From Acidobacteriota bacterium (GTDB lineage Bacteria > Acidobacteriota > Terriglobia > Acidiferrales > UBA7541): a stretch of DNA of 64,000 bases. The stretch lies in the NCBI GenBank assembly GCA_003225295.1, contig QHYZ01000047.1, positions 1-64,000 of the forward strand, read 5' to 3'. The notes below the pieces were generated by a model. That model worked only from the letters and a program-made list of their open reading frames with translations, was not told the origin of the DNA and did not search any database. The position numbers and the translations under genes are program-made. This document shows positions 33,939 to 60,592 of the stretch, piece by piece (positions within the stretch are counted from its first letter, which is position 1; each line of letters begins with the position of its first letter).

Positions 33939-36452
33939 CTACGAGCCGGCGTACAACTGGAAGGGGGCCCAGTAGAAGGGCTTCCTGAAGACGGAGTCAG
34001 GGTCGGCGGAACGCAGGAGCCCGAGTTTGGCTTCGCGCAGGGCCGCGGCGGGGTCCTTGCCCTGAAATAGTTCGCGGTAAAACGCATCCATTAACTGCGG
34101 AGTGGAGGCATCGCTCACTTCCCAGAGCGCGCCAATGACGTTGTGGGCACCGGCGCGGAGGAAGGCCCAGGAGAGACCCACCAGACCCTCGCCGGAATAG
34201 GCGCGTGTTCCGGCACCGTTGCAGGCAGAGATGGTCACGAGACTGGCGTTCAAGCGGTGCTGGACGATATCGCGAGCGTAAAGCTTGTACGAGTCACCTT
34301 CCAGGCTGAGAATCACGGCGGACTCGAGGGGACGGATGTGGCTGGCGGTTCCATGGGTAACAAAGTGGAGATAGGAATACTGCTCGGGATTGCTTTTGAG
34401 GAATGCCGTGGGAGTGGCGCTGCTTCCTTCCAGGACTCTCGTTTGCGCTCCGGGGAAATATTTTCTGACCTGCTTCATTTCCTCGGCGGCTTGCGGGAGC
34501 GGGGCAAAGGGAGGGTTGGGAGGCTTGGTATCGCCGACGAGGAAAAGAGTCTTGTCACTGGGCGTAGGCCGATTGGCGGACGCGGCCAGCATGGTGAGCG
34601 AACTACCCGTCGTCAAAGTAACATCCTCGATCCAGAAGTGCGGCTGCGGATCGGGCACGACCAAGGTTTCAAAGTTCAACCCGTAGAGACCCTCCGACGG
34701 CAAGACAATGACTCGTGAGCCGGGAGGAATCAGCTTCTTGGCCGGCTCGACCAGCATGGCGTATAGCCTTTTCCCTTCGGTGCTGCCGTCGTCTTGCACG
34801 TCGCGCATCCTCAGAAGCGCTTTGCGATACTCTGAAACCACAGGCTCAATCACCGAAGCCGAGGGCAGTTTGAAATAGCTCATCTTCGCGGGAGTGATAA
34901 CCCAAAGATAGGATTGTTCGTGTCCGACCCAATAGAAGAGCAGCGAGGCATTTAGTTTCCGCGCAGTCTGCTGCGGATCAAACTTGCTGGGCGCGCTTAG
35001 GTCGTCGGCCGCCGTGGATGCCAAACCTTCCGTTAGAGTTCTCGCACGGCTCAATTCAGCAATGTTTAACGCGTCGTTCGATCGGCCGTGGGCAACCAGG
35101 AAATCAACATAATCGTCGTAGAATTCGATTGCGCTCGAAAGAAACGTCAGGCGAAATTCATCGCGATTCAGAGACTGTCTCACCGCTTCGACCGTGCCAA
35201 TCGCTTCCCGGTATTCTCTCTGCGCTTGAACCGACTTCCCCGCTTTGTCGGACGTCTTAGCCAATCGCGCTTGCGCCTCCCAGACAAGAGGCTTATCTGC
35301 CTTTGGGCTTTGGATGACTACGCGAAAAAGCCGCTCAGCATCAAGGAAATGGCCCCGGAACGCTCGAATCCGAGCCTGCAGAAGCTGTGAGTTCAGCGTG
35401 CCGGACTTGTCAGAGCCATTCCTTTCAATCTCCAAAGCTTCATTTGTGTATCGTTCGGCAAGGTCCACGCGGCCTAATTGCATTTCGACGGCGGACAGAT
35501 CATTAAGACACTTGGTGAGTATGCTCTTCTCGTCCAGACCCCCGGCAATTTTCAGGGCTTGCTCAAGAATTGCCCGCGCAGATTCGTAATCGTGCATTGA
35601 GTAGTGAGAATTGGCCACCCCGGCGAGCCAGTAGGCCTGAGTCGCTGGGATTTTGCGTAGCGCCGAATCCTCCGCTGCTTCCTTGTAGAGAGACATGGCA
35701 TTTTCGAAATCCCCTAAGTCGAAATAGTTCCAACCCATGTTTCCAAGGATCACCCCCACCGTGTCTTTCATTCCCAGCGAGCGAGAGAGTTTCAACGCCG
35801 ACTGGTTCCAGTCGACGGCTTCGTCGAAATGTCCCTGTTTCGTCGCGACAAGGCCCAGATTTCCCAGAGCGTTCGCTTCCTGGACCTGATCCTTTTCTCT
35901 TCGGGCGAGTAGAAGCCCACGGTGAAAGGTTTCTTGGGCAGCCGGATATCTTACTTCTTCCACTTCAAGCGCGCCTCGATTATTCAGGATCTCTCCCATG
36001 ATTCGTGGTTGATAGGAGGAAGCCAGCCGTTCTGCTTCTATGAATTTTTTCTCTGAGTCTTCAAACTGTTGAGCGTACCTGTAAGCCACACCTTCGACCA
36101 TAGCCTTGCGCGCCGCTATGCCCGTCGAGGCCAATACAGGAGGGAGATCTTCATTGAGGACTACTAAGGCTTCTTTGTATTCCCTGCGGAAAACAAGAAA
36201 TTGTGCCTTCAGGACACGAAAGCGCCAAGCCCATTCTTCATTCTTGGACCCGTATTCTTCGGATGCCCGATCTATGTCGGCCCTGGCAGCGTCCAGTTCG
36301 CCATGTCGAATCTCTTGGACAATATGGTCATAAACGGCTTGCGGCCCTGCAACGGAATGGCAGGCCCAAATATAGAAGCAGGATAAGAACTGGCAAAGTA
36401 AAATTAGGTTCCGCTGGGTGTGGGCGGCATGGGCTGGCCGTTGGTGGTGCAC
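33939..36452 (-). CDS. TPR-CHAT protease (locus A)
   Basis: About 837 residues: a possible lipoprotein-like signal (LCQFLSCFYIWAC), many tetratricopeptide repeats (ANALGNLGLVATKQGHFDEA, GVILGNMGWNYFDLGDFENA), then a C-terminal CHAT peptidase of the caspase/separase clan with His in YLHFVTHGTASH and Cys in VTISACNGAGTR. The start is unsure: a GTG at 36452 overlaps the upstream gene, and no ATG fits between 36404 and the first TPR. Last gene of sigma, anti-sigma, unknown, CHAT. It could be a stress-sensing protease acting on that sigma/anti-sigma pair (inference). Confidence 0.85.
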   Translation of the reverse strand: MHHQRPAHAAHTQRNLILLCQFLSCFYIWACHSVAGPQAVYDHIVQEIRHGELDAARADIDRASEEYGSKNEEWAWRFRVLKAQFLVFRREYKEALVVLNEDLPPVLASTGIAARKAMVEGVAYRYAQQFEDSEKKFIEAERLASSYQPRIMGEILNNRGALEVEEVRYPAAQETFHRGLLLARREKDQVQEANALGNLGLVATKQGHFDEAVDWNQSALKLSRSLGMKDTVGVILGNMGWNYFDLGDFENAMSLYKEAAEDSALRKIPATQAYWLAGVANSHYSMHDYESARAILEQALKIAGGLDEKSILTKCLNDLSAVEMQLGRVDLAERYTNEALEIERNGSDKSGTLNSQLLQARIRAFRGHFLDAERLFRVVIQSPKADKPLVWEAQARLAKTSDKAGKSVQAQREYREAIGTVEAVRQSLNRDEFRLTFLSSAIEFYDDYVDFLVAHGRSNDALNIAELSRARTLTEGLASTAADDLSAPSKFDPQQTARKLNASLLFYWVGHEQSYLWVITPAKMSYFKLPSASVIEPVVSEYRKALLRMRDVQDDGSTEGKRLYAMLVEPAKKLIPPGSRVIVLPSEGLYGLNFETLVVPDPQPHFWIEDVTLTTGSSLTMLAASANRPTPSDKTLFLVGDTKPPNPPFAPLPQAAEEMKQVRKYFPGAQTRVLEGSSATPTAFLKSNPEQYSYLHFVTHGTASHIRPLESAVILSLEGDSYKLYARDIVQHRLNASLVTISACNGAGTRAYSGEGLVGLSWAFLRAGAHNVIGALWEVSDASTPQLMDAFYRELFQGKDPAAALREAKLGLLRSADPDSVFRKPFYWAPFQLYAGS

Positions 36453-37210
36453 TCGACGACGGTGCCGTTGGCTGCCTGAGGGGACCCCAGCTTGAGGCGC
36501 AGCATCGTCAGCGTGCGCGTACCAAAGGCGGCGAAGACCTCCGCGAAAGAGATTTCTCCAAAATGATCGATCTTCAGGATGTGGCCCTCCTTGTGAAGGC
36601 CAGGAAACTGGACGTTGATATCTTCCGCAAGCGAGCACAAGGCGACCCCGTCAGTGGTGACGGATATTTTGTCTGGTTTCTTGTCTTTTGCAAGCCTATC
36701 GCGCAGGGTAGCGAAAGTCCTGCATTCGACCATCAAGTCGTGGCGCAGAGTAACCGTCACGGCGTGACCGGCAATCTTCAGGCCTTCGAACGTGCTTCCG
36801 AGGGCGATGAAGTGGCCCTCCCGCTCCCCAACGTGATGCTCCGAGGTCAGTCGCGCAACGATGCGGTCGGCGGTTATGAAGTCCAGAATATTGAGGCCCT
36901 CAATGACGGCGGTGGCGTGCGTGGTGACGATCTCATCGTTCTGCCAACTGCCGGAGACGTGGCTAGAGGCGGCAGTGAAGCGCACGAGACCATCGACGCG
37001 GAAGTTTTCCACGCGCGAGTGGGCGTGGCCTCCGATCGTCGGCAGCGACACAGACGCCTGCGCCGCAATCGGGTAAAGAACCGGCCGATGAAAAGTGCCG
37101 CTGAAGGCGTGCGCCTCAGCATGAAAGTGGAACGGGATGCGCTGCTTCGATTCGTTCGCACTCGCCGTTTTCGTGGTCTTAGTGGTCTTCTTGGAGCGCT
37201 TCGCGGGCAT
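36404..37210 (-). CDS. Unknown beta-rich protein of the sigma-CHAT locus
   Basis: A roughly 268-residue protein with a basic Lys/Thr-rich N-terminus (PAKRSKKTTKTTKTASANES) and a beta-rich body containing many His and Thr (HFHAEAHAFSGTFHRPVLYP, LPTIGGHAHSRVENFRVDGL). No signal peptide, membrane segment or known domain. Its 3' end overlaps the likely start of the CHAT gene by up to 49 bases. Lying between anti-sigma and protease, it is a candidate substrate, adaptor or inhibitor. Confidence 0.7.
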   Translation of the reverse strand: MPAKRSKKTTKTTKTASANESKQRIPFHFHAEAHAFSGTFHRPVLYPIAAQASVSLPTIGGHAHSRVENFRVDGLVRFTAASSHVSGSWQNDEIVTTHATAVIEGLNILDFITADRIVARLTSEHHVGEREGHFIALGSTFEGLKIAGHAVTVTLRHDLMVECRTFATLRDRLAKDKKPDKISVTTDGVALCSLAEDINVQFPGLHKEGHILKIDHFGEISFAEVFAAFGTRTLTMLRLKLGSPQAANGTVVECTTNGQPMPPTPSGT

Positions 37211-37255
37211 GGACGTCACCTCGATTATCTAATTCGGAGGCTAATAATCTTTCAT

Positions 37256-37957
37256 CTACGGGAGAAACTCAATAGCAAAGCTGAGACGCAGGACTTCGTC
37301 CTGGGCAGGCTGTCCCTTGGACCCCGGCTCGCCGGTGAAGACCAGCGTGTATTGCCCGGGCTTGACCAGACTTGCTGGAACCACCAAATTCAGTTCCTTG
37401 TTGGTGAACGATCCCGGGACCCGGACCTGCAGCACGGACCGGCCAGACCGATCCTGAAGCCGGCAAAGGTAGGCGTCAAAAGATGTCTTAGGGGTGAAGT
37501 CGAATTTGAGCGGAAGGCTCTCGTTTGGGCGAACAGAAAGCTTTATTTCTTCGCTGCCGCGTGTGACTGCCATTTTTGGCGCATGAGAGGAAACAAATAG
37601 CTGCGCCGCACCGGAAGCGGCTTCTTCCCTCGCTTGAGGAATGGTGACCGTATTCTGATAAGCGATGATCAGCAGCAGAGCCGCGAGCGCCGGTATCGCC
37701 GTATTGGGCTGGAACCAGCGCAGCCATCCGCCAAGCGCCGGAACGGAATCTGACGCGAGCTGGTTGGCCTTCTCTTGCCGCCAGACTTGGCGCGTCGTGT
37801 CGGCAAACGTAGCCAGCGCCTTCAGATCGATGGCACATTCCGCGCATTCGAAATAATGTTCTTCGTATTCCTCCCGCTGGATCTGGGAGAGTTCGCCGAG
37901 CACATACTTTACTGCCGCTTGCAGTTGTATTGCCTCGTTGTGATCCATATTTGCCAT
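37256..37957 (-). CDS. Membrane anti-sigma factor with zinc-finger motif
   Basis: About 233 residues. N-terminus: zinc-binding anti-sigma motif H-x3-C-x2-C in EEHYFECAECAIDL (near 35). One transmembrane helix follows (TAIPALAALLLIIAYQNTV, near 90-110), then an exported beta-rich domain (LKFDFTPKTSFDAYLCRLQD, GQYTLVFTGEPG). That is the plan of a transmembrane anti-sigma factor. ATG at 37957 (MANMDHNEA) or three codons later. It begins 34 bases after the sigma gene. Confidence 0.85.
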   Translation of the reverse strand: MANMDHNEAIQLQAAVKYVLGELSQIQREEYEEHYFECAECAIDLKALATFADTTRQVWRQEKANQLASDSVPALGGWLRWFQPNTAIPALAALLLIIAYQNTVTIPQAREEAASGAAQLFVSSHAPKMAVTRGSEEIKLSVRPNESLPLKFDFTPKTSFDAYLCRLQDRSGRSVLQVRVPGSFTNKELNLVVPASLVKPGQYTLVFTGEPGSKGQPAQDEVLRLSFAIEFLP

Positions 37958-37990
37958 CCGAAGGGTAGTGCAGGGGGGCACTAGAACGTT

Positions 37991-38656
37991 TCACTGTTTT
38001 CCCAGGCCAGCCGCCTGTTTGGCCATCCCCCTCTGGCCTTTCTCATAGAGGGCCTTGAACTTATCCTTGGCGCGGTGGACTAGCACCCTCAGGTACTCGC
38101 GATCGACCCCCAGTTCCCGGCATATCATGTCCTTCTCCTTATCTTCTAAGAAGATAGCGCGAAGAAGCGCGCGGTCCCGTTTTGGCATTCCGTCGAGGAT
38201 CCGCCGCACATGCTCCCCGGATTGTTTGGTGACCAGCATGCCCTCCAGATCCAATGTTTTGTCCGGTATATCCTGGTGCGCGTCCTCCATCGGCTGGCTC
38301 TTAGCGGAAGATCTGTAGTACTCCAGTAAGATGTTGTTACAAATGGAGTTAACGAAAGCTCCGAAGCGCTCCGGCTGGCGCACACCGCCGTCTTTGCGCA
38401 CGACGCCAATGACTCGAATAAAAGTCTCCTGCTGCAAGTCTTCTACTTTGTCTGGGGGAATTCTCCTGGACCGGAGCTTGATACGCAGGAGTTGCTCAAA
38501 ATAAGCGACAAAGTGTTGCTCGGTCGACGGGTCCCCCTCCCGCAGCCGTTCCACATACGCTTGGCTAAAAGTGAAGAACTCCACGCTGGCCTCGGATTCT
38601 TGGCGGAGGAGTATAGCGTCGCACCCCCTGTTGGGGCAATGAGACTTATGATTCAT
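37991..38656 (-). CDS. ECF-like sigma-70 factor (locus A)
   Basis: A 221-residue sigma-70 family protein: region 2 (FVAYFEQLLRIKLRSRRIPP, VEDLQQETFIRVIGVVRKDG, FVNSICNNILLEYYRS) and region 4 (MPKRDRALLRAIFLEDKEKD, CRELGVDREYLRVLVHRAKD). No region 1.1 or 3. It presumably directs transcription of its own locus under control of the anti-sigma factor just downstream. Two in-frame ATGs (38662, 38656) are possible. Confidence 0.9.
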   Translation of the reverse strand: MNHKSHCPNRGCDAILLRQESEASVEFFTFSQAYVERLREGDPSTEQHFVAYFEQLLRIKLRSRRIPPDKVEDLQQETFIRVIGVVRKDGGVRQPERFGAFVNSICNNILLEYYRSSAKSQPMEDAHQDIPDKTLDLEGMLVTKQSGEHVRRILDGMPKRDRALLRAIFLEDKEKDMICRELGVDREYLRVLVHRAKDKFKALYEKGQRGMAKQAAGLGKQ

Positions 38657-38772
38657 CAACATTCCGCTGAAACGGATTCGCGGACAGATGCACTACTCGT
38701 TTGTAGGAACCCCCGTAGGCTCGGGAGTCCTTATCCGTGGGGAACCCTCCCCGGTCCCCATGTGCCCCAGTG

Positions 38773-49591: not shown

Positions 49592-50575
49592 ATGGCATCC
49601 GTTCTTGAAATACAGAATCTTCAGGTCTCATATCGGTCACGCGAGGGTATCTTGTCGTCGGCGTTAGCCGGCGTCAGTTTTGATCTCATGCCCGGCGAGA
49701 TCATCGGCGTCCTCGGCGAATCCGGATCAGGCAAGAGCACGCTCGCCGTATCGCTGGTGCGGCTGCTTCCCCGGAATGGGGAGATCATTCGCGGGGCTGT
49801 CCACTTTGAGGGGCAAGATCTTCTCCGGGCCACACCGGATGAACTGCAGCAAATCCGTGGCCGGTGCATTTCGCTGATTTTCCAGGAGCCCTCTCTGGCG
49901 CTCCATCCAACCCTGCGCGCGGGTGAACAGGTTCGTCAGGTGCTGGCGGCGCACAGCGCTCCGGGAAAAAGCGCGCTGAACGAGCGGACGCGTCAAGTTT
50001 TCGCACAACTCTTTCCTGAAGACGCGGACCGCATTTCGCGCTCCTATCCACACCAGCTGAGCGGAGGACAACGGCAACGCGTGCTCATCGCGCAAGCGAT
50101 TGCCTGCGGTCCATCCGTTGTGATTGCTGATGAACCTACCGCATCGCTCGACTCCGCGACACAAATGGAACTCCTCGCCGTGTTTCGAACGCTCCGGGAA
50201 AGAATGGGTCTGGCAATGATCTTCATCACTCATAACCCAGCCCTGCTCTCCGGCTTTGCCGACCGTGTGCTGGTCCTCTATGGCGGCCAGGTTGTCGAAT
50301 GTGGACCGGCTGCAACCGTGCTCGCGTCGCCCCGGCATCCCTACACCAAGGCTTTGTTCCAGTCCATTCCGGCGATATTCGAGGAGCGTGGGAGCGGTCG
50401 TAAGACGAAACTGCCGGTAATCCTTGGCGATTCAGCGCGCTCGTCCCTGCCCCGCGGTGGTTGTCCCTTCGAACCGAGGTGCACGGAAAGAATGAGCGTG
50501 TGCAGAGAGCGTGAGCCCTCATTGGTGAACTTGAGCGCGTCTCATGAGGTTTCGTGTTTCAAGTATGAAAGTTGA
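49592..50575 (+). CDS. dppD: Peptide ABC transporter ATPase (DppD/OppD-type)
   Basis: A 327-residue ATPase: Walker A GESGSGKSTLAV (near 38), Q-loop LIFQEPSLALHP, signature LSGGQRQRVLIAQ (near 155), Walker B VVIADEPTAS, and the family-specific Cys-rich C-terminus (RGGCPFEPRCTERMSVCREREP) that can bind an Fe-S cluster in some members. It pairs with the next gene to drive di/oligopeptide import. First gene of the run; the stop overlaps dppF. Confidence 0.9.
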   Translation: MASVLEIQNLQVSYRSREGILSSALAGVSFDLMPGEIIGVLGESGSGKSTLAVSLVRLLPRNGEIIRGAVHFEGQDLLRATPDELQQIRGRCISLIFQEPSLALHPTLRAGEQVRQVLAAHSAPGKSALNERTRQVFAQLFPEDADRISRSYPHQLSGGQRQRVLIAQAIACGPSVVIADEPTASLDSATQMELLAVFRTLRERMGLAMIFITHNPALLSGFADRVLVLYGGQVVECGPAATVLASPRHPYTKALFQSIPAIFEERGSGRKTKLPVILGDSARSSLPRGGCPFEPRCTERMSVCREREPSLVNLSASHEVSCFKYES

Positions 50576-51404
50576 AGCATCAGCTGGCAGCCAAAACATG
50601 CCGCCACTCTTGAAGGTCGAAAATCTCGTGAAGTGCTATGCCCGGCGGAGTCTCGTTGGCAGGGGGGAAGAGTTGCTGGCTTTGAATGGAGTATCGTTCA
50701 CGGTTTTCCCGGGAACCACGCTGGCGGTCGTCGGAGAATCGGGATCCGGCAAGAGTACGCTGGCGTCGTGCCTCGCCTGTCTGGAATCTCCTACGGCGGG
50801 AAACATTTGGTTTGAAGGAAAAGACATCGTCAAGGTCGAGGAACGCGTGCGTCGGCAACTTCGCCCGCAAATCCAGCTCATATTTCAAGATCCCGCAAGC
50901 TCCTTGAATCCCAGATGGAGCGTGCTCGAGATCCTCCTTGAGCCGCTGATTTTGCGGCGCAAATTCACTCGCGAAGAAATGAAGCAGTGCGCCAGTTCTC
51001 TGCTCGAACGAGTTGGTCTTTCGCCAGACTTTGTGGAGCGGCCTCCAACCGAGTTGAGCGGCGGTCAACGCCAAAGACTGGCCATTGCTCGAGCATTGGC
51101 ACTCCAGCCGAAGCTCTTGATTCTGGATGAAGCGCTTTCGGCTCTCGATTGTTCGGTGCAGGCGCAAATCGCCAATCTCCTGAGGGAGCTGCAAAGCTCT
51201 CTGGGGATGACGTATTTGTTCATCACGCATGACCTGGCCATGGCTGTCTATCTTGCCGACGAGATCGCCGTGATGAGTCGCGGCCGAATCGTGGAGTTGG
51301 GCTCGGCAGAGCAAATATTGGACCAGCCCCAGCATGAAACTACTCGCCAGCTGCTCAGGGCTTTGCCCCGAATGACGCGCGCGCTGCCAGCGCCGGAGCA
51401 ATGA
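50565..51404 (+). CDS. dppF: Peptide ABC transporter ATPase (DppF/OppF-type)
   Basis: About 279 residues with Walker A GESGSGKSTLAS, Q-loop LIFQDPASSLNPRWSVLEIL, signature LSGGQRQRLAIARAL and Walker B LLILDEALSALD, where the usual Glu is kept. It lacks the Cys-rich tail, like other OppF ATPases, whose shorter C-terminus matches. ATG at 50565 overlaps the end of dppD; a first ATG at 50544 is possible. Its stop overlaps the permease ATG. Confidence 0.9.
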   Translation: MKVEASAGSQNMPPLLKVENLVKCYARRSLVGRGEELLALNGVSFTVFPGTTLAVVGESGSGKSTLASCLACLESPTAGNIWFEGKDIVKVEERVRRQLRPQIQLIFQDPASSLNPRWSVLEILLEPLILRRKFTREEMKQCASSLLERVGLSPDFVERPPTELSGGQRQRLAIARALALQPKLLILDEALSALDCSVQAQIANLLRELQSSLGMTYLFITHDLAMAVYLADEIAVMSRGRIVELGSAEQILDQPQHETTRQLLRALPRMTRALPAPEQ

Positions 51405-52378
51405 TGCGCTACCTGCTGCGCCGGCTAAGTCACGCTTTGTTTTTACTGGCCGGAGTGTCCATTCTCGCCTTCCTCTTCACGGCGTTGGCCCCGGGAACGT
51501 ACTTCGACGAAATGCGCTTGAATCCGCAGATTGCGCCGGAGACGGTAACGGCGCTGCGTGCCCAATACGGTTTCGACAAGCCGCTGCCGGTCCGTTATGC
51601 ATCCTGGCTCCGTTCAGTAATTCACGGCGAGATGGGATTCTCGTTTGCCTATAACGGTCCGGTAGCGCCGCTTCTGCTGGTACGCGCACGGAACACCCTG
51701 CTCCTGACAATTACCGCCACGCTGCTTGCCTGGGGGATTGCCCTACCACTCGGTGTATGGAGCGCGGACCGGCTCGGGCGCCTGCCGGACCGTTTGCTAT
51801 CGTGGGCAACCGCAGGGCTGCTGGTTATTCCTGACCTGGCGGTTGCTCTGGGACTCTTAGTGCTTGCAGTGAGAAGTGGATGGTTTCCGACAGGAGGGAT
51901 GGCTTCCGTCGATTTTGAAACGCTTTCACCCTTCAACAAGCTGCGCGATTTGGCGCTGCACATGATTCTGCCAGTGACGGCACTCGTGTTATCATCTCTG
52001 CCTCTGCTCGTCCGTCATGTGCGCGCAGCCGTGGCGGACGTGCTCAACGCTCCGTTTCTGTTGGCTGCCGTGGGGCATGGCATCCGCAAACGCACACTTC
52101 TATATCGATATGCACTTCCGGCGGCGGCGAATCCTTTGATCTCCCTCTTTGGTTTCAGCATCGGTGTATTGTTGAGCGGATCGCTGCTCATCGAAGTGGT
52201 GATGAGCTGGCCGGGACTCGGCCCGCTGTTACTGGAGGCCGTCCTGGCGCGTGATCTCTACGTAGTCGTCGGTGGAATCCTGGGTTCGACGCTTTTCTTG
52301 GTCGGAGGAAATTTATTGGCCGACTTGCTTCTTTACTGGGCTGATCCGCGGATCCGGACCGAGAGTGGCGCAAGATGA
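51401..52378 (+). CDS. dppB: Peptide ABC transporter permease (DppB-type)
   Basis: A 325-residue inner-membrane protein with the N-terminal signature of DppB/OppB (MRYLLRRLSHALFLLAGVSI), about six TM helices, and the EAA-type loop near residue 215 (RHVRAAVADVLNAPFLLAAV). The usual ALYNRQVRAS-type loop is degenerate. ATGs overlap on both sides, so the operon is tightly coupled. Confidence 0.9.
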   Translation: MMRYLLRRLSHALFLLAGVSILAFLFTALAPGTYFDEMRLNPQIAPETVTALRAQYGFDKPLPVRYASWLRSVIHGEMGFSFAYNGPVAPLLLVRARNTLLLTITATLLAWGIALPLGVWSADRLGRLPDRLLSWATAGLLVIPDLAVALGLLVLAVRSGWFPTGGMASVDFETLSPFNKLRDLALHMILPVTALVLSSLPLLVRHVRAAVADVLNAPFLLAAVGHGIRKRTLLYRYALPAAANPLISLFGFSIGVLLSGSLLIEVVMSWPGLGPLLLEAVLARDLYVVVGGILGSTLFLVGGNLLADLLLYWADPRIRTESGAR

Positions 52379-53424
52379 GAGTGCGGCGCACGTTCGCGAA
52401 ATGGCTGGTGGTCCTTGGCGTGCTGCATGGGATGGTGGTCTGTGCGGGTTTTTTCGCACCCTACGATCCGGTCGAGCAGGACCGCCAAAGCCCGTATCTA
52501 CCGCCCATGCGGCTTCATCTCCTAGATGCACACGGTCATCTCCACGTGCGGCCCTTTGTGTATGCGCTGAGATTGCGCGAAAGTTCGTTCGACCAATTTG
52601 AGGAAGACACCACGGAGCCTCATCCCGTGAAGTTCTTCCTGCGTGGGGCTCGTTACCGATTGTTGGGATTCCTGCCGCTCCGCATGCACTTTTTCGGCGG
52701 CGAGAACACGCGCATCTATCTTCTCGGTACCGATGCTTATGGCCGCGACCAGTTTTCGAGACTCCTCTTTGGTGGCCAGGTGTCGCTGTTCGCTGGCCTG
52801 CTGGGAGCGGGAGTTACGTTATTCATCGGCTGGTCGATCGGTGCGGTGGCGGGTTACTACGGCGGTTGGAGAGATAGCCTGCTCATGCGAGTCGCCGAGC
52901 TGTTTCTCGCCCTGCCTTGGTTGTATCTGCTCTTCGCCCTCCGCGCTTTCCTGCCCCTGGCGGTCAGCCCGCTGGAAGCCTTCTTTCTCATCACCGCGGT
53001 CCTGGGAGCAGTAGGCTGGGCCCGTCCGGCGCGACTCGTTCGTGGCGTCGTACTTAGTGCCAAAGAGCGCGACTTCGTTCGCGCCGCCCGAGGCTTCGGA
53101 GCATCAAATGGATACTTGCTCCGGCGCCATATTCTGCCGGAAACTTCCAGTGTGCTTTTGACACAAGCAGCGATTCTGATACCGCAATATGTCCTGGCGG
53201 AGATGACCCTTTCGTTTCTTGGTCTGGGCGTCCCCGAGCCGGTGCCAAGCTGGGGAAATCTTCTCTCCGGCTTGCAGCAATACAGCGTGCTGGTCTCTTA
53301 TTGGTGGATGTATTTGCCCGCGCTGGCAATGGTTCCGTTCTTCCTAGGATACTTGGGCCTGGCGAGCTCGTTCGAGGAGCGAGGAGCGGTCTACAAGATA
53401 GAATCGAGAATCTGGGGAATGTAA
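52375..53424 (+). CDS. dppC: Peptide ABC transporter permease (DppC-type)
   Basis: A 349-residue permease. After the first TM helix there is an unusually long insert (residues 40-115, rich in charged residues) before LGTDAYGRDQFSRLLFGGQV, the hallmark DppC segment (near 118). The EAA loop reads SAKERDFVRAARGFGASNGY (near 225). Five to six TM helices follow. It overlaps dppB by four bases. Confidence 0.9.
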   Translation: MRVRRTFAKWLVVLGVLHGMVVCAGFFAPYDPVEQDRQSPYLPPMRLHLLDAHGHLHVRPFVYALRLRESSFDQFEEDTTEPHPVKFFLRGARYRLLGFLPLRMHFFGGENTRIYLLGTDAYGRDQFSRLLFGGQVSLFAGLLGAGVTLFIGWSIGAVAGYYGGWRDSLLMRVAELFLALPWLYLLFALRAFLPLAVSPLEAFFLITAVLGAVGWARPARLVRGVVLSAKERDFVRAARGFGASNGYLLRRHILPETSSVLLTQAAILIPQYVLAEMTLSFLGLGVPEPVPSWGNLLSGLQQYSVLVSYWWMYLPALAMVPFFLGYLGLASSFEERGAVYKIESRIWGM

Positions 53425-53425
53425 C

Positions 53426-55225
53426 GTGAAAAAAACGACAGCAAATTGCAAATGCTGTGGGATGCGCTCGATCGTGCTCCTGCTGCTTTTCGTGTTTGTC
53501 GGCCACCAGGCGATTGCCTTTCCTCAAGAGAAAATTGGAAAAGAAGAATTACTGGTGCTCCCGGGAGAAGTGGGCCGGGCAGGAGGGCGCCTGGTCGTAT
53601 CGCTCCGCGGCGAACCGAAGACTTTGAATCCCTTGATCGCCGCTGATGCGCGATCCCGCGAAGTGATTGGCGTAATGCAGGCCGACCTCGTCCATATTAA
53701 CCGCGCGACGCAACAAACGGAACCTGCACTGGCCAAGTCCTGGAAGATCTCGCCAGACGGCCTGTCGTACACAATCGTGCTCCGGCGGGGATTGAAATTT
53801 TCGGACGGGCAGCCGCTCGATGCGGATGATGTGCTCTTCACTTTTCGGGTCTATCTCGATGAAAATGTGCATGCCCCGCAACGAGATCTGTTGATGGTTG
53901 GCGGGAAACCGATCACCGTGCGCAAGGTAGACGAACATACCGTCGTTTTTCAATTGGCGAAGACTTACGGTGTGGGCGAAAGGCTGTTCGATGGCTTGGC
54001 GATTCTCCCCCGGCATCTCCTGGAAAAACGCTACGAGGAGGGGAAGCTGGGGCAGATCGGATCCTTGGCCACGGCCGCGGATCAATGGGCGGGACTCGGC
54101 CCGTTCCGGTTGAAGGAGTACGTCGCGGGGCAACGATTGGTCCTGGAGCGGAATCCTTACTATTGGAAATCGGATGCCCAGGGCGGTCGCCTGCCTTATC
54201 TGGATGAACTCGTGTTTCTATTCGTGCCAAACGCGGATGCCCAGGTCTTAAAGTTCCAATCGGGCGAAACCGATATGATCAGCCAGGTGGGGGCGGAGAA
54301 TTTCTCCGTGTTATCGAAGCAGCAGCATGGTTATACGATGGTGGATGCCGGACCCGGCCTCGAGTACAACTTTCTTTTCTTCAATCTGAATGACTCCATC
54401 GAAAAAACATCGCCGGATATCCAGCGGAAGCAAAAATGGTTCCGCGAGGTGAACTTCCGGCAGGCAGTTTCCGCTGCGGTGGACCGCGAAGCCATCGTTC
54501 GGCTCGTTTACCAGGGACGCGGTGCCGCCCTGTGGGGCTTGGTCGCACCGGGCAATCGCCGATGGGGAAATGAGAAACTCCCCCATCCCGCGCGGTCGCT
54601 TGATCGCGCACGAACACTGCTCAAGGAGGCTGGTTTTTCCTGGAGCAATGGTCCTGACGGAGGATCAACGCTCCTGGATTCCGATGGAAAATCCGTCGAG
54701 TTCTCCATCCTCACGAGTTCTACGAACGCAGACCGCGCAAAGATGGCGGCGCTCATCCAGGACGACTTGAAGCAACTCGGGATGCGCGTCCAGGTAGTGC
54801 CGCTCGAGTCTCGTTCTCTCCTCGATCGGGTCACCCAGAGCAGGGACTACGATGCCTGTATCATGGGGATAGCCAGCTACGATGCGGACGCGAATTCCGA
54901 TATCAGTGTCTGGCTATCGAGCGGCGGATTACACTTGTGGAGTCCCTCGCAGGCGCATCCCGCCACATCATGGGAAGCGGAAATTGATCGGTTGATCGAA
55001 GAACAAATGTCTGCGCGTACTTTCGAACAACGGAAGAAACTGTATGATCGCGCGCAAGAAATTCTTGCCGAGAATCAGCCCATGATTTTTCTCGCGAGCC
55101 CGAATATTCTTGCCGGCGCCAAAAACTCCATCGGCAATTTCCATCCCGCCGTTCTGGAACCCTACGTACTCTGGAATGTGGAGCAGCTCTATCTCAAGAA
55201 CGGGATGGAGAATGCCACCCGATGA
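53426..55225 (+). CDS. dppA: Peptide-binding protein (SBP family 5)
   Basis: A 599-residue solute-binding protein with a signal peptide (IVLLLLFVFVGHQAIAFPQE) and the family-5 signature region (WKISPDGLSYTIVLRRGLKF, near 110; GQPLDADDVLFTFRVYLDEN). GTG start. The stop overlaps the ATG of the sigma factor (ATGA), so the importer and the sigma-CHAT genes are one translation chain. It binds peptides or nickel-chelates in other members; the ligand here is unknown. No lipobox was seen. Confidence 0.9.
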   Translation: MKKTTANCKCCGMRSIVLLLLFVFVGHQAIAFPQEKIGKEELLVLPGEVGRAGGRLVVSLRGEPKTLNPLIAADARSREVIGVMQADLVHINRATQQTEPALAKSWKISPDGLSYTIVLRRGLKFSDGQPLDADDVLFTFRVYLDENVHAPQRDLLMVGGKPITVRKVDEHTVVFQLAKTYGVGERLFDGLAILPRHLLEKRYEEGKLGQIGSLATAADQWAGLGPFRLKEYVAGQRLVLERNPYYWKSDAQGGRLPYLDELVFLFVPNADAQVLKFQSGETDMISQVGAENFSVLSKQQHGYTMVDAGPGLEYNFLFFNLNDSIEKTSPDIQRKQKWFREVNFRQAVSAAVDREAIVRLVYQGRGAALWGLVAPGNRRWGNEKLPHPARSLDRARTLLKEAGFSWSNGPDGGSTLLDSDGKSVEFSILTSSTNADRAKMAALIQDDLKQLGMRVQVVPLESRSLLDRVTQSRDYDACIMGIASYDADANSDISVWLSSGGLHLWSPSQAHPATSWEAEIDRLIEEQMSARTFEQRKKLYDRAQEILAENQPMIFLASPNILAGAKNSIGNFHPAVLEPYVLWNVEQLYLKNGMENATR

Positions 55226-55815
55226 GCCCGGTGGTGACAAAAACCCGGAAGAAACCGCCGGCCGCCTGGAGCGACACGCGGCTCGTCAAAGCATGTCTCT
55301 CCGGCGATGAAGAAGCGTGGTCATTGCTCATTGATAAGTACAAGGCGCTGATCTATTCCATTCCCGTGAAGTACGGTTTGTCGCGTCAGGAAGCCGCCGA
55401 CGTCTTTCAAGCGACCTGCACGGAGCTTCTCGTGCGGCTGCCCGAACTGCGCGAACCACGCGCGCTGCCCAAATGGTTGATGCAGGTAGCGCACCACGAA
55501 AGTTACCGGTGGAAGCGGCAAAGCCAGCGCACAGTGAGCCGCGATGCGGAGAGGGATTTACCGGAACCGACAACACCGGCCATCGCCGAGAGCCTCTTTC
55601 AGCAGACGCAGGAAGAGCAGATGCTGCGAGAGGCCATGACCGTGTTGACGCCGCAATGTCGCCGGCTCGTGGAGTTGCTGTTCTTTGAAACGCCGTCGCG
55701 GCCTTACACGGAAGTCGCGGCGGAACTTGGTCTGGCTGTGGGCTCCATTGGATTCACCCGCCAGAAATGCCTCGAACGGTTGCGGGTGCAACTCGACGAA
55801 CTGGGTTTTAACTGA
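55222..55815 (+). CDS. ECF-like sigma factor (locus B)
   Basis: A 197-residue sigma-70 family protein: region 2 (LVKACLSGDEEAWSLLIDKY, KALIYSIPVKYGLSRQEAAD, VFQATCTELLVRLPELRE, LPKWLMQVAHHESYRWKRQS) and region 4 (VLTPQCRRLVELLFFETPSR, YTEVAAELGLAVGSIGFTRQ). The ATG overlaps the dppA stop, and the stop overlaps the CHAT start (TGATG). It is not close to the locus A sigma in sequence. Confidence 0.9.
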   Translation: MSPVVTKTRKKPPAAWSDTRLVKACLSGDEEAWSLLIDKYKALIYSIPVKYGLSRQEAADVFQATCTELLVRLPELREPRALPKWLMQVAHHESYRWKRQSQRTVSRDAERDLPEPTTPAIAESLFQQTQEEQMLREAMTVLTPQCRRLVELLFFETPSRPYTEVAAELGLAVGSIGFTRQKCLERLRVQLDELGFN

Positions 55816-58700
55816 TGCCGGCAACCCTCAGGAAAAATTCGCGGGATTCCCTCATCGCAAAATTGGGGCAACTCTCCGGCGATGCGGCCCGCCGCGGATT
55901 TTTTGCCCGACACAAGACGCTGATTCGCAAAGAGGTTGTCGAACAGCTCGCGCAGTTGGTCCTCGAGAGGGTCCGCGTGAGCACGCGCGAGGCGCTCCAC
56001 CTTGCCGAAGCAGCCGTGCTCATCGCGAAAAAACTGAAGCGCAAAGAGTTCCTGGCGCTGGCCTTGCGCCAGAAGGCCAACGCCCTGTATTCCTCCGGGG
56101 ACAATCGTGCCGCGGTCGAATATCACGAACAAGCTTTCCGGCTTTACGAATCGCAGGGGCATTGGAAAGAAGCGGCACGCACGTTGAGCACCTCCATCCA
56201 GCCGATGATCCTGCTGGGAGAGTACGACAAGGCGTTTCAGGCCGCGGAGCGTGCGCGAGAAATCTTTACCCGCCTGAACGATCCGTGGCGCTTGGCGCGG
56301 TTGGAAATCAACGTCGGCAACATCTATCACCGTCAAGACCGGTTCGAAGAATCGATTGCACACTACGAGCGTGCTTATGCCGACCTGATGCCATACAAAG
56401 ACGCCGAAGGGATCGCCGTGGTCCTTAGCAATATGGCCGTTTGTCTGATCAGCCTCAACGATTTCCAGCGGGCCCTGGCAACCTATCAGGGGGCTCGTTC
56501 CTTCTGCCAGCAGAACAACATGCCCCTGCTGGTGGCCCAGGCCGATTACAACATTGCGTATCTCTATTACCTGCGCGGCGAGTACAGCCGCGCCATCGAG
56601 GCGCTCTATGCTGCGCGGCGCGCCTGCGAAGCCACTGGCGATGCCTATCACTTCGCGTTATGCCATTTGGATCTTTCCGACATCTATCTCGAGCTGAACC
56701 TTAGCGAAGAAGCCCGGGAAATAGCGCATGAAGGATTCCTCCGGTTCGAGAAGCTCGGGATGGGCTATGAGGCCGCCAAGACGCTGGCGAACGAAGCCAC
56801 GGCCTATGGCCAACAAGGGAAGACGGTCCAAGCTCTGGAGCGCTTTGCAAAAGCGCGAGACATGTTTGGACGGGAGAAAAATCTCGTTTGGCCCTGGCTC
56901 ATCGATTTGTACCAAGGCTTGCTGCTCTTCCACGAAGGACGTTACTTTGAAGCCCGGCGGCTGTGTGTTGCCGCCGCTGCTTTTTTCGATCAATCGGCGC
57001 TCTCCGGGAAAGCCGTACTCGTGCACCTGCTGCTCGCGCGCATTGCTCTGCAGGTGGGGGACTCGGCGGAAGCACAAAAGGAGACAAACGAATCGCTCGC
57101 GCGGCTGACTGGCCTTCAGACTCCAGTGCTTGCCTATCAAGCGCACTTACTCGAAGGACAGATCGCGCAAGCTCGCGACGACCGCGCGGCGGCGCACCAG
57201 GCCTACCTGGAAGCAAGGAAAGCGCTGGAAGCCCTGCGCAGCCGATTGCAAGGCGAAGAACTGAAGATCTCTTTTGTCAAGAATAGAATGCAGGTCTACG
57301 AAGCGCTGGTGGATTTGTACATTGCGGGAGATGGAACGGAGACCTCCACCGAAGAAGCGCTCGCCTGCATGGAAGCTGCGAAATCGCGCAGCATGATCGA
57401 AATGATATTTCAAAGCGGACAGAGTCTTCCGCTGGGTGAAGCGGGCCAGAGCGACCTCGTCCGCAGAATAAGAGACCTGCGCGAGGAACTCAACTGGTAC
57501 TACCACCGTATCGAACTCGAGCAGCTTCGTCCCGAAGAAAAATCCCACCAAAGACTCGGGAGTTTGCGGGAAAAGGCTCAATTGCAGGAGAAAGAACTGA
57601 TGCGAACGCTGCGCGAGCTCCCGGCGCACGAGCGGGAGAACGCCACGCTGGAAGCTCCCGCGGACTTTTCCCTCGCAAAGCTTCAAGCCCATCTTCCGCA
57701 GGACACCACCCTGGTCGAATACTTTTCGGCTGGCGAACGCCTCGTAGCCGCGGTCATTACCCGCAAGGATATCCAGATTCTGCCCGTGACCGTACTGTCC
57801 CGGGTTGCTCATTTTCTGCAATTGCTGCGATTTCAACTCTCCAAGTTTCGCATGGGCAACGAATATGTCCGGCGATTTGCAGAACCGCTTTTGAGTGCCA
57901 CCCATAGCCATCTGGAAACTCTCTACAGCGAACTCATCGCACCCCTGAGACCATTTTTCGAGGGAAGGCACCTCATTGTGGTGCCCCACGGGCTCCTCCA
58001 TTTTTTGCCATTCCATGCTCTGAGAAATGGAGAACAGTATCTTTGCGATGCCTTCACGGTTTCCTACGCTCCCAGTGCGACGGTTTTCTCCTGGTGTCAG
58101 GAGAAACCGGCAAGCGCAAACCTGAGTTCGCTCGTTTTTGGAATCGCCGACGAGCGAGCGCCGCAGATCCTCGAGGAAGCCCAGTCCGTGGCGGCGCTCC
58201 TGCCAAAATCTTCGCTCCACGTTGGAGACCGTGCAACGTCCTCGGTGCTTCGCGAAGAAGGTCCGCAGAGCGGCCTTCTTCATCTCGCTACTCACGGCAT
58301 CTACCGGCAGGACAACCCGATGTTTTCGGGCATCCGGCTAGGCGATGGGTACCTGAATCTGTATGACCTCTACCAGATGCGTTTGGACGCCCGGTTGGTG
58401 ACTCTGAGCGGCTGCGCCACAGGCATGAACTTCGTCGCAGCCGGCGACGAATTGCTCGGACTTCAGCGAGGCCTTTTCTGTGCCGGAGCGACAACACTGC
58501 TGCTATCGTTGTGGGACGTACACGATCAAAGCACTTCGCAATTAATGCAATTTTTCTATCGGGATTTCTTGCGCACCGGCAACATGGCAGGCGCACTCCA
58601 GCACGCCATGCAAGAACTTCGGCGCGAGAATCCCCATCCCTACTTCTGGGCACCCTTCGTCCTGGTCGGCAAACTCTCTGATTCTACAAGGCTTACCTAA
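55815..58700 (+). CDS. TPR-CHAT protease (locus B)
   Basis: A 961-residue protein, no signal peptide. Residues 40-490 are TPR-like repeats (EFLALALRQKANALYSSGDN, RLEINVGNIYHRQDRFEESI, AVVLSNMAVCLISLNDFQRA). A long helical/coiled segment (500-620) precedes the C-terminal CHAT domain with catalytic His in LLHLATHGIYRQ and Cys in VTLSGCATGMNF; it ends NPHPYFWAPFVLVGKL. The TPR-CHAT plan equals that of Csx29, the protease of type III-E CRISPR systems, and of separase-like proteases. It is made together with the sigma factor before it. Confidence 0.9.
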   Translation: MPATLRKNSRDSLIAKLGQLSGDAARRGFFARHKTLIRKEVVEQLAQLVLERVRVSTREALHLAEAAVLIAKKLKRKEFLALALRQKANALYSSGDNRAAVEYHEQAFRLYESQGHWKEAARTLSTSIQPMILLGEYDKAFQAAERAREIFTRLNDPWRLARLEINVGNIYHRQDRFEESIAHYERAYADLMPYKDAEGIAVVLSNMAVCLISLNDFQRALATYQGARSFCQQNNMPLLVAQADYNIAYLYYLRGEYSRAIEALYAARRACEATGDAYHFALCHLDLSDIYLELNLSEEAREIAHEGFLRFEKLGMGYEAAKTLANEATAYGQQGKTVQALERFAKARDMFGREKNLVWPWLIDLYQGLLLFHEGRYFEARRLCVAAAAFFDQSALSGKAVLVHLLLARIALQVGDSAEAQKETNESLARLTGLQTPVLAYQAHLLEGQIAQARDDRAAAHQAYLEARKALEALRSRLQGEELKISFVKNRMQVYEALVDLYIAGDGTETSTEEALACMEAAKSRSMIEMIFQSGQSLPLGEAGQSDLVRRIRDLREELNWYYHRIELEQLRPEEKSHQRLGSLREKAQLQEKELMRTLRELPAHERENATLEAPADFSLAKLQAHLPQDTTLVEYFSAGERLVAAVITRKDIQILPVTVLSRVAHFLQLLRFQLSKFRMGNEYVRRFAEPLLSATHSHLETLYSELIAPLRPFFEGRHLIVVPHGLLHFLPFHALRNGEQYLCDAFTVSYAPSATVFSWCQEKPASANLSSLVFGIADERAPQILEEAQSVAALLPKSSLHVGDRATSSVLREEGPQSGLLHLATHGIYRQDNPMFSGIRLGDGYLNLYDLYQMRLDARLVTLSGCATGMNFVAAGDELLGLQRGLFCAGATTLLLSLWDVHDQSTSQLMQFFYRDFLRTGNMAGALQHAMQELRRENPHPYFWAPFVLVGKLSDSTRLT

Positions 58701-58815
58701 TCGCTAAGACTCATATATTTCTTGGCCCTCTGCCTGCCCTTATGCCATGAGGATGCCAGACCGTCCCATTCACCGGGGATCGCTCGGGACGCGGAAAGAA
58801 ATTTGGGGGAAGAGT

Positions 58816-59451
58816 ATGGAACACTTTGCGACCGAGAAGTGGATCGATTTCGTGAATCAGGCAGTGGACACCAACGAGAAGCAGTTGATGGAGCGCCACC
58901 TCCAGCAAGGCTGCAAACGGTGTAGAAAGACAGTTTCGCTGTGGCAGAAAGTTCGGCAATCAGCGGCTTCGGAAGCGAACTACCAGCCTCCCGAGCACGC
59001 CGTGAGGCTCGCCAGGGCCGCCTTTGCGGAAGCCGGGTTGGCGGGTCAAAGAAAGGGAGCGGGCAGCCGCATCAAACTTCTCTTCGACAGCTTTCTTCAG
59101 CCGGCTTTCGAAGGAGCTCGATCGGCAGGCGCTGGCACAAGGCAGATGCTTTATCGCGCGGACCCATTTCAGATTGATATTCAGGTGGAGGCCGCGGCTG
59201 GCCGGAACCGCATCGTGGTTACCGGGCAGCTCCTGAACTTGAGCAATCCTGGAATCCTTGACCAAGGCACGAAAATCGCTCTTTCCAACATGCGCGGAAA
59301 AGTTGTGAATGCCATGACCAATCAGTTTGGCGAGTTTAGTGGAGAGATTGAGAACAGCGGAGACCTGCAGATGACGTTCGCAAACCCCAGCAGCCGGCCA
59401 ATCGTGATTTCGCTCCGGGATGCGCTTGGTAGTCTGTCTGGGAACGACTGA
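58816..59451 (+). CDS. Soluble zinc-finger protein, candidate anti-sigma
   Basis: A 211-residue protein. Near residue 30: RHLQQGCKRCRKTVSLW, a H-x4-C-x2-C motif like zinc-finger anti-sigma factors (usually H-x3-C-x2-C). The rest lacks a TM helix and instead has a beta-rich domain (RNRIVVTGQLLNLSNPGILD, VNAMTNQFGEFSGEIENSGD) resembling a carboxypeptidase-regulatory-like fold. ATG follows GGGGGAAG. It is 115 bases after the CHAT gene, and its stop touches the subtilisin fragment. It probably controls the locus B sigma; the protease may act on it (inference). Confidence 0.75.
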   Translation: MEHFATEKWIDFVNQAVDTNEKQLMERHLQQGCKRCRKTVSLWQKVRQSAASEANYQPPEHAVRLARAAFAEAGLAGQRKGAGSRIKLLFDSFLQPAFEGARSAGAGTRQMLYRADPFQIDIQVEAAAGRNRIVVTGQLLNLSNPGILDQGTKIALSNMRGKVVNAMTNQFGEFSGEIENSGDLQMTFANPSSRPIVISLRDALGSLSGND

Positions 59452-59885
59452 TGGCAACCGATTCATGCCCTTGCCGCACATCGCAGCCCTGGCACGAAGG
59501 TACCAAGGCCGCGGCCTTCAATGGCTCCGTCATGGGTATCGCCTCGACGACGGATTGGGACACCCCTTCTTCCTTTTCCAACTACGGCACCACGGACGCC
59601 TGGATCGCCGCCCCCGGCGACTACGTCATCAGCACCTTTCCTGGCGGAACCCATCCTAGCGCTTCTGGCACCTCGTTCAGCTCTCCGCTGGTCGCGGGCA
59701 CGGCCCCGCTGCTCATCAGTGCAAAACCGTCGCTAAACCAAAAGCAGGCCGCCAGCGCTTTGTCACATGCGGTACGGCTCACGCCTGACCTCAATCATGG
59801 CCGCCTCGATGTGTACCAGGCCATCGCTGCGTGGCTGAATAACTCCAGCTCAAATTCCGGTTCGTGCTCCTTGTTCTGCTGGTAA
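59451..59885 (+). pseudogene. Subtilisin-type (S8) peptidase fragment
   Basis: 145 codons cover only the C-terminal third of an S8 peptidase: SFSNYGTTDAWIAAPG, the catalytic Ser segment ASGTSFSSPLVAGTAPLLI and the last helix (ALSHAVRLTPDLNHGRLDVY). The catalytic Asp and His, and the prodomain, are missing, and the first 25 residues look unrelated. The start codon overlaps the zinc-finger stop. It may be a relic, or a decoy; at most it is inactive. Confidence 0.75.
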
Positions 59886-59920
59886 CTGCCGTGTCGAACA
59901 ACGAAATTCCGCCGCCCACC

Positions 59921-60592
59921 ATGAGTTCTTCATCCTCGCGTGCGCCGGACTTGCTTCGCATCAAGCAGCTCGAAGAACAGACTTCCGCGCTTCGTAAGTC
60001 GGTCATCTGCGCTTTCAACCAGCTTCTGGATTTAAAAGACCTAAATACCGGCGTGCACAGTACGCGGCTGGCGGAATGGGGCATGCGTGTCGGACGAGAA
60101 CTGGGCCTGGAAGAAGCCGAGCTTCAGAATCTCGAAGTTGCCGCGCTCCTGCACGACATTGGTAAAGTTGGCATCCCGGATTCCGTCCTCCTCAAGCCTG
60201 AGAGTCTGGACGCGGAAGAATACGCACTCATGAGAAAACACTCCGAGTACGGCTGGGCTGTCCTGCGCATGCTTCCAGGCTTCGAGCGCGCCGCTCTTGA
60301 TATTCTCCATCATCACGAATCTTTCAACGGAAAGGGATACCCGGCGGGACTAAAGAACACTGAGATTCCCGTAGTTTCGCGGATTGTCTGCGTCATCGAT
60401 GCCTTTGATGCGATGGTTTCATCTCGTCCTTATCGAAAAGGCCTGCCATACCAAGAAGCTGTGCGCCGGCTCAACGAGGCAAGTGGCACTCAGTTCGACC
60501 CTACTGTCGTCAAGTCCTTCCTGTCCTTCGCGGAATCAGAAATGTCCCGGGTCTTCGCCGCCGCCGGCACGTCGGTTTCATCAGCCCTTTGA
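59921..60592 (+). CDS. HD-GYP domain protein
   Basis: About 223 residues with a short N-terminal coiled segment and a single HD-GYP domain: EVAALLHDIGKVGIPDSVL (HD motif, near 80), HHHESFNGKGYPAGL (GYP motif, near 140) and IVCVIDAFDAMVSSRPYRKG. HD-GYP enzymes hydrolyse c-di-GMP. The ATG at 59921 was chosen; GTG codons at 59864 and 59891 in frame could extend it. It overlaps the subtilisin fragment only if the longest frame is used. No receiver or sensor domain. A PilZ protein lies elsewhere in the window. Confidence 0.85.
   Translation: MSSSSSRAPDLLRIKQLEEQTSALRKSVICAFNQLLDLKDLNTGVHSTRLAEWGMRVGRELGLEEAELQNLEVAALLHDIGKVGIPDSVLLKPESLDAEEYALMRKHSEYGWAVLRMLPGFERAALDILHHHESFNGKGYPAGLKNTEIPVVSRIVCVIDAFDAMVSSRPYRKGLPYQEAVRRLNEASGTQFDPTVVKSFLSFAESEMSRVFAAAGTSVSSAL

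Follow-up and report, generated by a model that had tools for sequence, protein, structure and literature searches.

Triads made of a protease, an inhibitor and a sigma factor have been described: Csx29-Csx30-CASP-sigma in type III-E CRISPR systems (PMC10028731), and CalpL-CalpT-CalpS, in which the protease cuts the anti-sigma factor that accompanies an extracytoplasmic function (ECF) sigma factor (PMC11417357). For ECF54, regulation by proteolysis with no anti-sigma factor has been suggested from a gene context comprising a carboxypeptidase, a subtilase and a CHAT gene (PMC8999054). Here, we analyze a stretch of 64,000 nucleotides from an Acidobacteriota bacterium (assembly GCA_003225295.1, contig QHYZ01000047.1, positions 1 to 64,000; hereafter the window), in which genes for a sigma factor, a tetratricopeptide repeat (TPR)-CHAT protein and a zinc-finger protein follow each other at 55222-59451. 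A preliminary description of this DNA had proposed these three genes, and all three are real, as judged from the profile matches of the first two (Table 1) and from the H-x4-C-x2-C motif of the third. From sequences and structural models, we consider it moderately probable that they form a CRISPR-free switch in which the activated TPR-CHAT protein disables a soluble zinc anti-sigma factor.

Like the type III-E triad, this locus combines a TPR-CHAT protease, a candidate sigma inhibitor and an ECF-like sigma factor, and Csx29 is the best fold match of its CHAT protein (PMC10028731). It differs from that triad by the lack of a RAMP match in its draft genome, by a CHAT sequence far below the Csx29 cut-off and by a putative inhibitor that is a protein of 211 residues resembling zinc-binding anti-sigma (ZAS) factors. 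CalpL is also distinct, being a Lon-type protease with a SAVED domain and activated by cA4 (PMC11417357). ECF sigma genes that keep company with CHAT, subtilase and carboxypeptidase genes, and for which proteolytic control has been proposed, have already been published as ECF54 (PMC8999054), and this context is found again in relatives of the window, which itself retains only a subtilase remnant. The ECF54 model protein is actinobacterial (PMC8999054), and the likeness considered here is one of gene context. While ECF54 is said to lack an anti-sigma factor (PMC8999054), the carboxypeptidase-regulatory-like protein encoded here begins with a ZAS-like domain. It is likely that the "carboxypeptidase" of ECF54 corresponds to this zinc protein, whose zinc domain would have been overlooked. 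Among open-access papers surveyed by title and start of abstract, none described a CHAT protease outside CRISPR together with an anti-sigma factor of the zinc type.

Linkage of the three genes and joint loss of catalysis and partners

Loci taken from searches in relatives were mapped with one profile per family, and 86 of them were retained after removal of identical CHATs, of CHATs covering less than 700 model positions, of L089 (a CHAT without its C-terminus) and of the window's other CHAT. Same-strand sigma and zinc genes lie within 6 kb of the CHAT gene at 77 of these 86 distinct loci. The co-occurrence of the three genes, which had been set beforehand as a test of the proposal, is thus not specific to one strain. 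The order sigma-CHAT-zinc-S8 subtilase is the commonest (42 loci), and deeper lineages display sigma-zinc-CHAT-S8 (11 loci) or sigma-zinc-CHAT (7 loci). Furthermore, order-wide searches of 95 genomes, with lists tallied by reading, found a CHAT orthologue (E up to 5e-144) in 42, the zinc gene (E under 1e-40) in 42 and both in 39. CHAT occurs without the zinc gene in G036 and G475, which have broken CHATs and in which a search at E up to 1e-20 found no zinc gene anywhere, and in G481, where the end of the contig cuts the CHAT gene off. The zinc gene occurs without CHAT in G482, where it sits at the start of a contig, as well as in G013 and G028, where the matches are without the N-terminus. The arrangement is more than chance and recurs across the phylum.

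The catalytic residues of CHAT follow the presence of its partners. In the same 86 loci, a partner being here a sigma or zinc gene within 4 kb of CHAT, His and Cys are both kept in 82 of the 82 CHATs with at least one partner, and catalytic residues are lost in all four that have neither: L076 (His to Glu), L195 (His to Arg and Cys to Thr), L209 (His to Arg and Cys to Trp) and L212 (His to Gln). These broken copies emerged after a first table of distinct CHATs, in which the His was present in 73 of 74 and the Cys in 74 of 74; the dyad, His827 and Cys867 in the window, is also invariant in the 18 rows of alignment A4. Lax searches of the four loci found no sigma or zinc domain. All four pseudo-CHATs are long open frames with the S8 and HD-GYP genes kept beside them, and the gene of the solute-binding protein (SBP) is kept in two. 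A quick tree computed without the catalytic columns requires two independent losses, both alongside partner loss. Catalysis is therefore retained in the company of the sigma/zinc pair, and the joint loss of pair and active site suggests, without proving it, that activating the pair is what the protease is for. The persistence of the pseudo-CHATs suggests on its side a non-catalytic role of the TPR-CHAT protein at those loci.

Two apparent CHAT-zinc fusions were rejected, since the single frame of 1276 residues at L155 passes through a stretch of N, and at L156 the CHAT sits in a different frame from that of 1305 residues containing the match to the zinc-family C-terminal domain. A search of plasmids for a zinc-family protein found none, and a second one returned only general CHAT proteins (56 records, of which three were opened and two profile-scanned). 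In profile scans of Nonomuraea and Paraburkholderia loci, CHAT was matched; sigma, zinc-family and S8 were not.

Features of the zinc protein and of the TPR-CHAT protein

The zinc protein looks like a ZAS-type anti-sigma factor, as anticipated in the preliminary description, because of its ligand set, its weak profile matches to anti-sigma factors and the occurrence of ZAS proteins next to sigma genes. Upstream of its H-x4-C-x2-C motif lies an extra His, and the resulting H-x24-H-x4-C-x2-C corresponds to the full ligand set of the ZAS consensus. None of the four residues (H3, H28, C33 and C36) varies across the 16 rows of alignment A1, whose other 15 rows are 25-77% identical to the window protein, and C33 is only nearly invariant in the wider alignment A3 (28 rows). 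Inspection by eye revealed no hydrophobic membrane segment, in agreement with what had been reported. Among the five PDB matches of the A1 profile at E up to 10 are RsiW (0.025), 3hug (0.043), listed by PDB as a probable membrane protein and which we take to be an anti-sigma factor of M. tuberculosis, and the ZAS chain of DdvA, weakly matched at 0.45; no Csx30 chain is among the five in this sequence-only comparison, and the best match, 4v4c (5e-5), is to the C-terminal half. Within the family, zf-HC2 is matched in 1 of 28 members (best 0.0054) and CarboxypepD_reg in 8 of 28 (best 0.0038), the window's own protein not being matched by the latter. With a profile restricted to the N-terminus, the matched protein adjoins an ECF sigma gene at all five loci that were fetched (L185, L188, L189, L193 and L194) out of many more weak matches.

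The AlphaFold2 (AF2) model of the zinc protein, with a predicted local distance difference test (pLDDT) score of 74.5, has helices at residues 6-13, 19-30 and 34-52 followed by a beta-sandwich. Structure matches to the sandwich (residues 86-210) are Ig-like folds at Z about 8, a common arrangement, and leave the N-terminal domain uncovered. In a census of 91 distinct proteins carrying the zinc-family C-terminal domain, the [H/C]HCC ligands are present in 65 of the 74 that are linked to both sigma and CHAT, and in none of the 5 orphans without sigma, CHAT and S8.

Orphan paralogues that have lost the zinc ligands and kept the C-terminal domain were found at L085 (1907-2551, on contig C184 of the source genome), L070, L086, L087 and L088. 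This C-terminal domain also occurs in proteins of about 285 residues (L090, 7420-8280, and L119, 7497-8381), which have a different N-terminus, receiver-like by eye, and adjoin an exported subtilase without CHAT; the L090 protein had no match in Pfam.

The CHAT protein is predicted by its dyad and its fold to be a CHAT (caspase/separase-like) protease, and the His of LATHG and the Cys of LSGCATG reported previously are present. Its AF2 model (pLDDT 81.5) matches Csx29 (Z 32.6 over 529 residues), separase (Z 29.8) and DdvA (Z 21.7 over 542 residues). Since proteins with TPRs only reach Z about 20 against this model, the DdvA match rests on its length. The parallel drawn earlier with Csx29 is thus supported by the modeled fold, and the NCBI Csx29 model NF041237 gives the CHAT protein 44.6 bits against a cut-off of 300. 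The source genome, a draft of 8.13 Mb in 385 contigs, contains no match to the RAMP family (PF03787, Cas7-type), controls matching in 4 of 14; because no RAMP protein was found in this draft, there is no sign of Cas7-11, consistent with the CRISPR-free character put forward at the outset. A reading of the locus as a defence system was rejected. In PADLOC, CHAT matched weakly to a generic TPR model (5.6e-4), whereas sigma and the zinc protein had no match; among the neighbours, a relative's S8 matched "subtilase" at 7.7e-15 and the HD gene matched Cas3-HD weakly, which brings no support.

The CHAT protease HetF of Anabaena offers a further comparison. It restricts PatU3, which inhibits the regulator HetZ, and which HetF "could degrade"; the available part of that account describes no sigma factor or zinc anti-sigma protein (PMC12288457).

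Related CHAT families and gene neighbourhood

Twenty-two further CHAT loci were taken from the source genome and 22 relatives, 20 of which were found by the CHAT profile and tested; L191 and L234 were fetched, missed by the profile and left outside the 20. At 11 of the 20, the CHAT gene neighbours an H-x3,4-C-x2-C protein with a hydrophobic transmembrane (TM) segment, and an ECF sigma factor is also present at nine of these 11. By eye, the CHATs of these 11 loci have, close to the N-terminus, a hydrophobic stretch resembling a signal or lipoprotein sequence, several having no ordinary start codon just ahead of it. If this stretch is real, protease and anti-sigma factor would share a compartment at these loci, like the soluble pair of the window. 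Moreover, at L230, L233 and L235, two H-x3-C-x2-C motifs, a TM segment, TPRs and CHAT are joined in one chain, and an ECF sigma gene lies next to it at all three. The window itself harbors one of the nine loci with sigma, a second set at 33942-38662 on the minus strand, made of sigma, zinc-TM, an open reading frame (ORF) of 271 residues and TPR-CHAT, and the sigma, zinc-TM, CHAT arrangement occurs in seven relatives of the genus (L223, L224, L225, L226, L228, L229 and L231). At L190 (532-3959, contig C374 of the source genome), an H-x3-C-x2-C TM protein directly precedes a TPR-CHAT with a signal peptide by eye.

The fold of the TPR-CHAT protein is also matched by Myxococcus xanthus DdvA, the anti-sigma factor of DdvS (8rot, 8rw5 and 8rlz; PMC4374960). 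DdvA was not matched by CHAT sequence search, and its fold suggests that it may include a CHAT part. It is transmembrane according to its PDB title and, as a single chain with ZAS, TM, TPR and a CHAT-like fold, it resembles the fused L230, L233 and L235 and not the window set, which has CHAT and zinc protein as two chains, with no TM segment seen.

Table 1. Coordinates of the features in the window
Feature	Position	Strand	Basis
ECF-type sigma factor, 197 aa	55222..55815	+	TIGR02937 1.7e-20; Sigma70_r2 3.4e-8
TPR-CHAT cysteine protease (predicted), 961 aa	55815..58700	+	Pfam CHAT 1e-59; no signal peptide by eye
Predicted catalytic His827 codon (LATHG)	58293..58295	+	sequence
Predicted catalytic Cys867 codon (LSGC; LSGCATG)	58413..58415	+	sequence
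Soluble zinc-finger anti-sigma candidate, 211 aa	58816..59451	+	alignments of relatives
ZAS-type anti-sigma domain (putative), residues 1-52 of zinc protein	58816..58971	+	profile matches
C-terminal beta-sandwich (predicted), carboxypeptidase-regulatory-like, residues 87-200 of zinc protein	59074..59415	+	Pfam in relatives; AF2 strands
S8 subtilase remnant	59451..59885	+	comparison with relatives
HD-GYP-type phosphodiesterase gene	59864..60592	+	HD_5 3.5e-38
Peptide-type ATP-binding cassette (ABC) solute-binding protein (SBP_bac_5)	53426..55225	+	3.5e-85
ABC transporter ATPases and permeases, before SBP gene	49592..53424	+	named from ORF sequence by eye
ECF sigma factor of second set	37994-38662	-	
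zf-HC2-like protein with TM, second set	37259-37981	-	zf-HC2 3.5e-4, just under its cut-off
TPR-CHAT of second set, hydrophobic N-terminus	33942-36638	-	

The claim that the three genes form one translation-coupled run stands for its upstream part only. Indeed, the sigma start overlaps the SBP stop (ATGA, 55222-55225) and the TGATG overlap between sigma and CHAT is confirmed at 55813-55817, while the zinc gene begins 115 bp beyond the CHAT stop if it starts at 58816. This start is most likely the right one and 58747, proposed earlier, too early, because conservation among relatives begins there, at M-[E/K/R]-H-F, behind a G-rich ribosome-binding site. CHAT and the zinc gene do not appear translation-coupled, since the 115-bp gap between them (58701-58815) holds a conserved element of its own (TATTTTT ... 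CCCTTAT ... GAG), which may serve the zinc gene as promoter or attenuator; its exact pattern was matched in 7 of 37 genomes, two of its eight matches being away from this locus. Between the zinc gene and S8, the genus has a GGTAC-N4-GTACC palindrome about 40 bp ahead of CGTAC[T/C]ATT (for instance at G014:C4:15721-15782), which is decayed in the window, beside the broken subtilase. A regulon defined by this palindrome was rejected, as it was matched in 8 of the 37 genomes with all eight matches at this locus. Neither exact pattern was matched in the source genome.

In most relatives, the next gene encodes an S8 subtilase of about 450 residues, and at most loci a signal peptide can be seen in it by eye. 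The window copy has lost approximately its first 325 residues, among them the signal peptide as well as the Asp and His of the active site, and the deletion in the sister L093 ends at nearly the same place. Because the three genes for sigma, CHAT and the zinc protein remain intact next to this remnant, the subtilase is probably output and not core. As the copy in the window is a remnant and most copies have a signal peptide by eye, the subtilase was rejected as the main candidate for cutting the cytoplasmic pair. An HD-GYP-type gene adjoins S8 in most loci of the genus. On the upstream side, an SBP gene is found within 6 kb, on either strand, at 30 of the 40 CHAT loci having at least 4.5 kb on both sides, SBP_bac_5 matches numbering 1 to 13 per genome in ten genomes; one of the ABC permeases was also matched in relatives.

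Proposed mechanism and alternatives

We infer from these features a cytoplasmic switch in which the zinc protein would be an anti-sigma factor whose N-terminal ZAS helices hold the ECF sigma factor inactive. A signal received by the TPR superhelix of the CHAT protein would activate its His827/Cys867 protease, which would in turn cut the anti-sigma protein and free the sigma factor. The cut would most likely fall in the weakly conserved linker that joins the ZAS domain to the beta-sandwich (residues about 55-88). In most relatives, the exported subtilase and the HD-GYP protein may belong to the output.

Several observations weigh against this proposal. The linkage count is biased upward, many loci having been picked through the zinc gene. 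Only two independent catalytic losses are available, which stays below significance (sign test, p 0.5), and two of the four broken copies (L209 and L212) lie in genomes, G501 and G502, that also carry an intact set with partners. Besides, the broken copies do not tell which of sigma and zinc protein is cut. Anti-sigma factors with solved structures are matched weakly by the A1 profile (E 0.025-0.45), and the full ligand set is missing in 9 of the 74 linked zinc proteins, including a group of short forms. Conversely, of five zinc proteins with S8 and no sigma or CHAT on the fetched piece, three (L114, L158 and L160, two of them on short contigs) keep HHCC. Finally, the zinc gene was not found at 6 of the 20 other CHAT loci, of which two, L219 and L220, are cut short by the end of their contigs.

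The zinc protein could instead be a classical redox- or zinc-sensing anti-sigma factor that releases sigma by itself, with CHAT as an effector of the regulon and not its trigger. The soluble ZAS factors ChrR and RshA do respond to oxidants (PMC8999054), and the loss of ligands in the five orphans fits such sensing. We nevertheless hold this explanation to be rather unlikely, as catalysis is broken at precisely the four loci without the sigma/zinc pair while their frames remain long and open, as neighbouring CHAT families offer fused and topology-matched forms, and as some ligand-less zinc proteins stay with sigma and CHAT. Somewhat harder to sustain is the idea that CHAT works as a partner switch, its TPR scaffold binding sigma or the zinc protein while its catalysis is aimed elsewhere, possibly at host proteins in a stress or suicide response. 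The long open frames of the pseudo-CHATs beside S8 and HD-GYP, as well as the fold match with the anti-sigma factor DdvA, speak for such a scaffold, which by itself does not predict that catalysis disappears together with sigma and the zinc gene, and which we deem unlikely. Finally, control of the type proposed for ECF54, in which a protease would degrade sigma to keep it off with no anti-sigma factor involved, shares the described gene context (PMC8999054) and agrees with the association of sigma loss and catalysis loss, but appears quite improbable given the conserved ZAS-like domain within the set and a subtilase that, with its signal peptide seen by eye in most loci, is unlikely to meet a cytoplasmic sigma factor.

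Beyond the switch proposed for the window, a wider and more tentative picture, doubtful as it stands, would embrace all these loci. There might exist a widespread CRISPR-free class of TPR-CHAT/ZAS systems in three topologies (both proteins cytoplasmic, a membrane-anchored anti-sigma factor with an exported CHAT, or one fused chain), from which the Csx29-Csx30-sigma branch of type III-E systems would have been recruited. In the form present in the window, the TPR part would read a peptide imported by the co-encoded peptide-type ABC transporter. RRNPP regulators, which read imported peptides, provide an analogy for such a TPR superhelix.

The set is found in many soil Acidobacteria, apparently without CRISPR. 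If the switch operates as proposed, a caspase-like protease would head an ordinary bacterial transcription switch outside CRISPR, which would hint at the origin of Csx29 and of its sigma circuit and would provide the anti-sigma factor said to be missing in the ECF54 description. It would also make available a CHAT protease outside CRISPR that is tractable and whose substrate is predicted, for which the pseudo-CHATs are ready natural controls.

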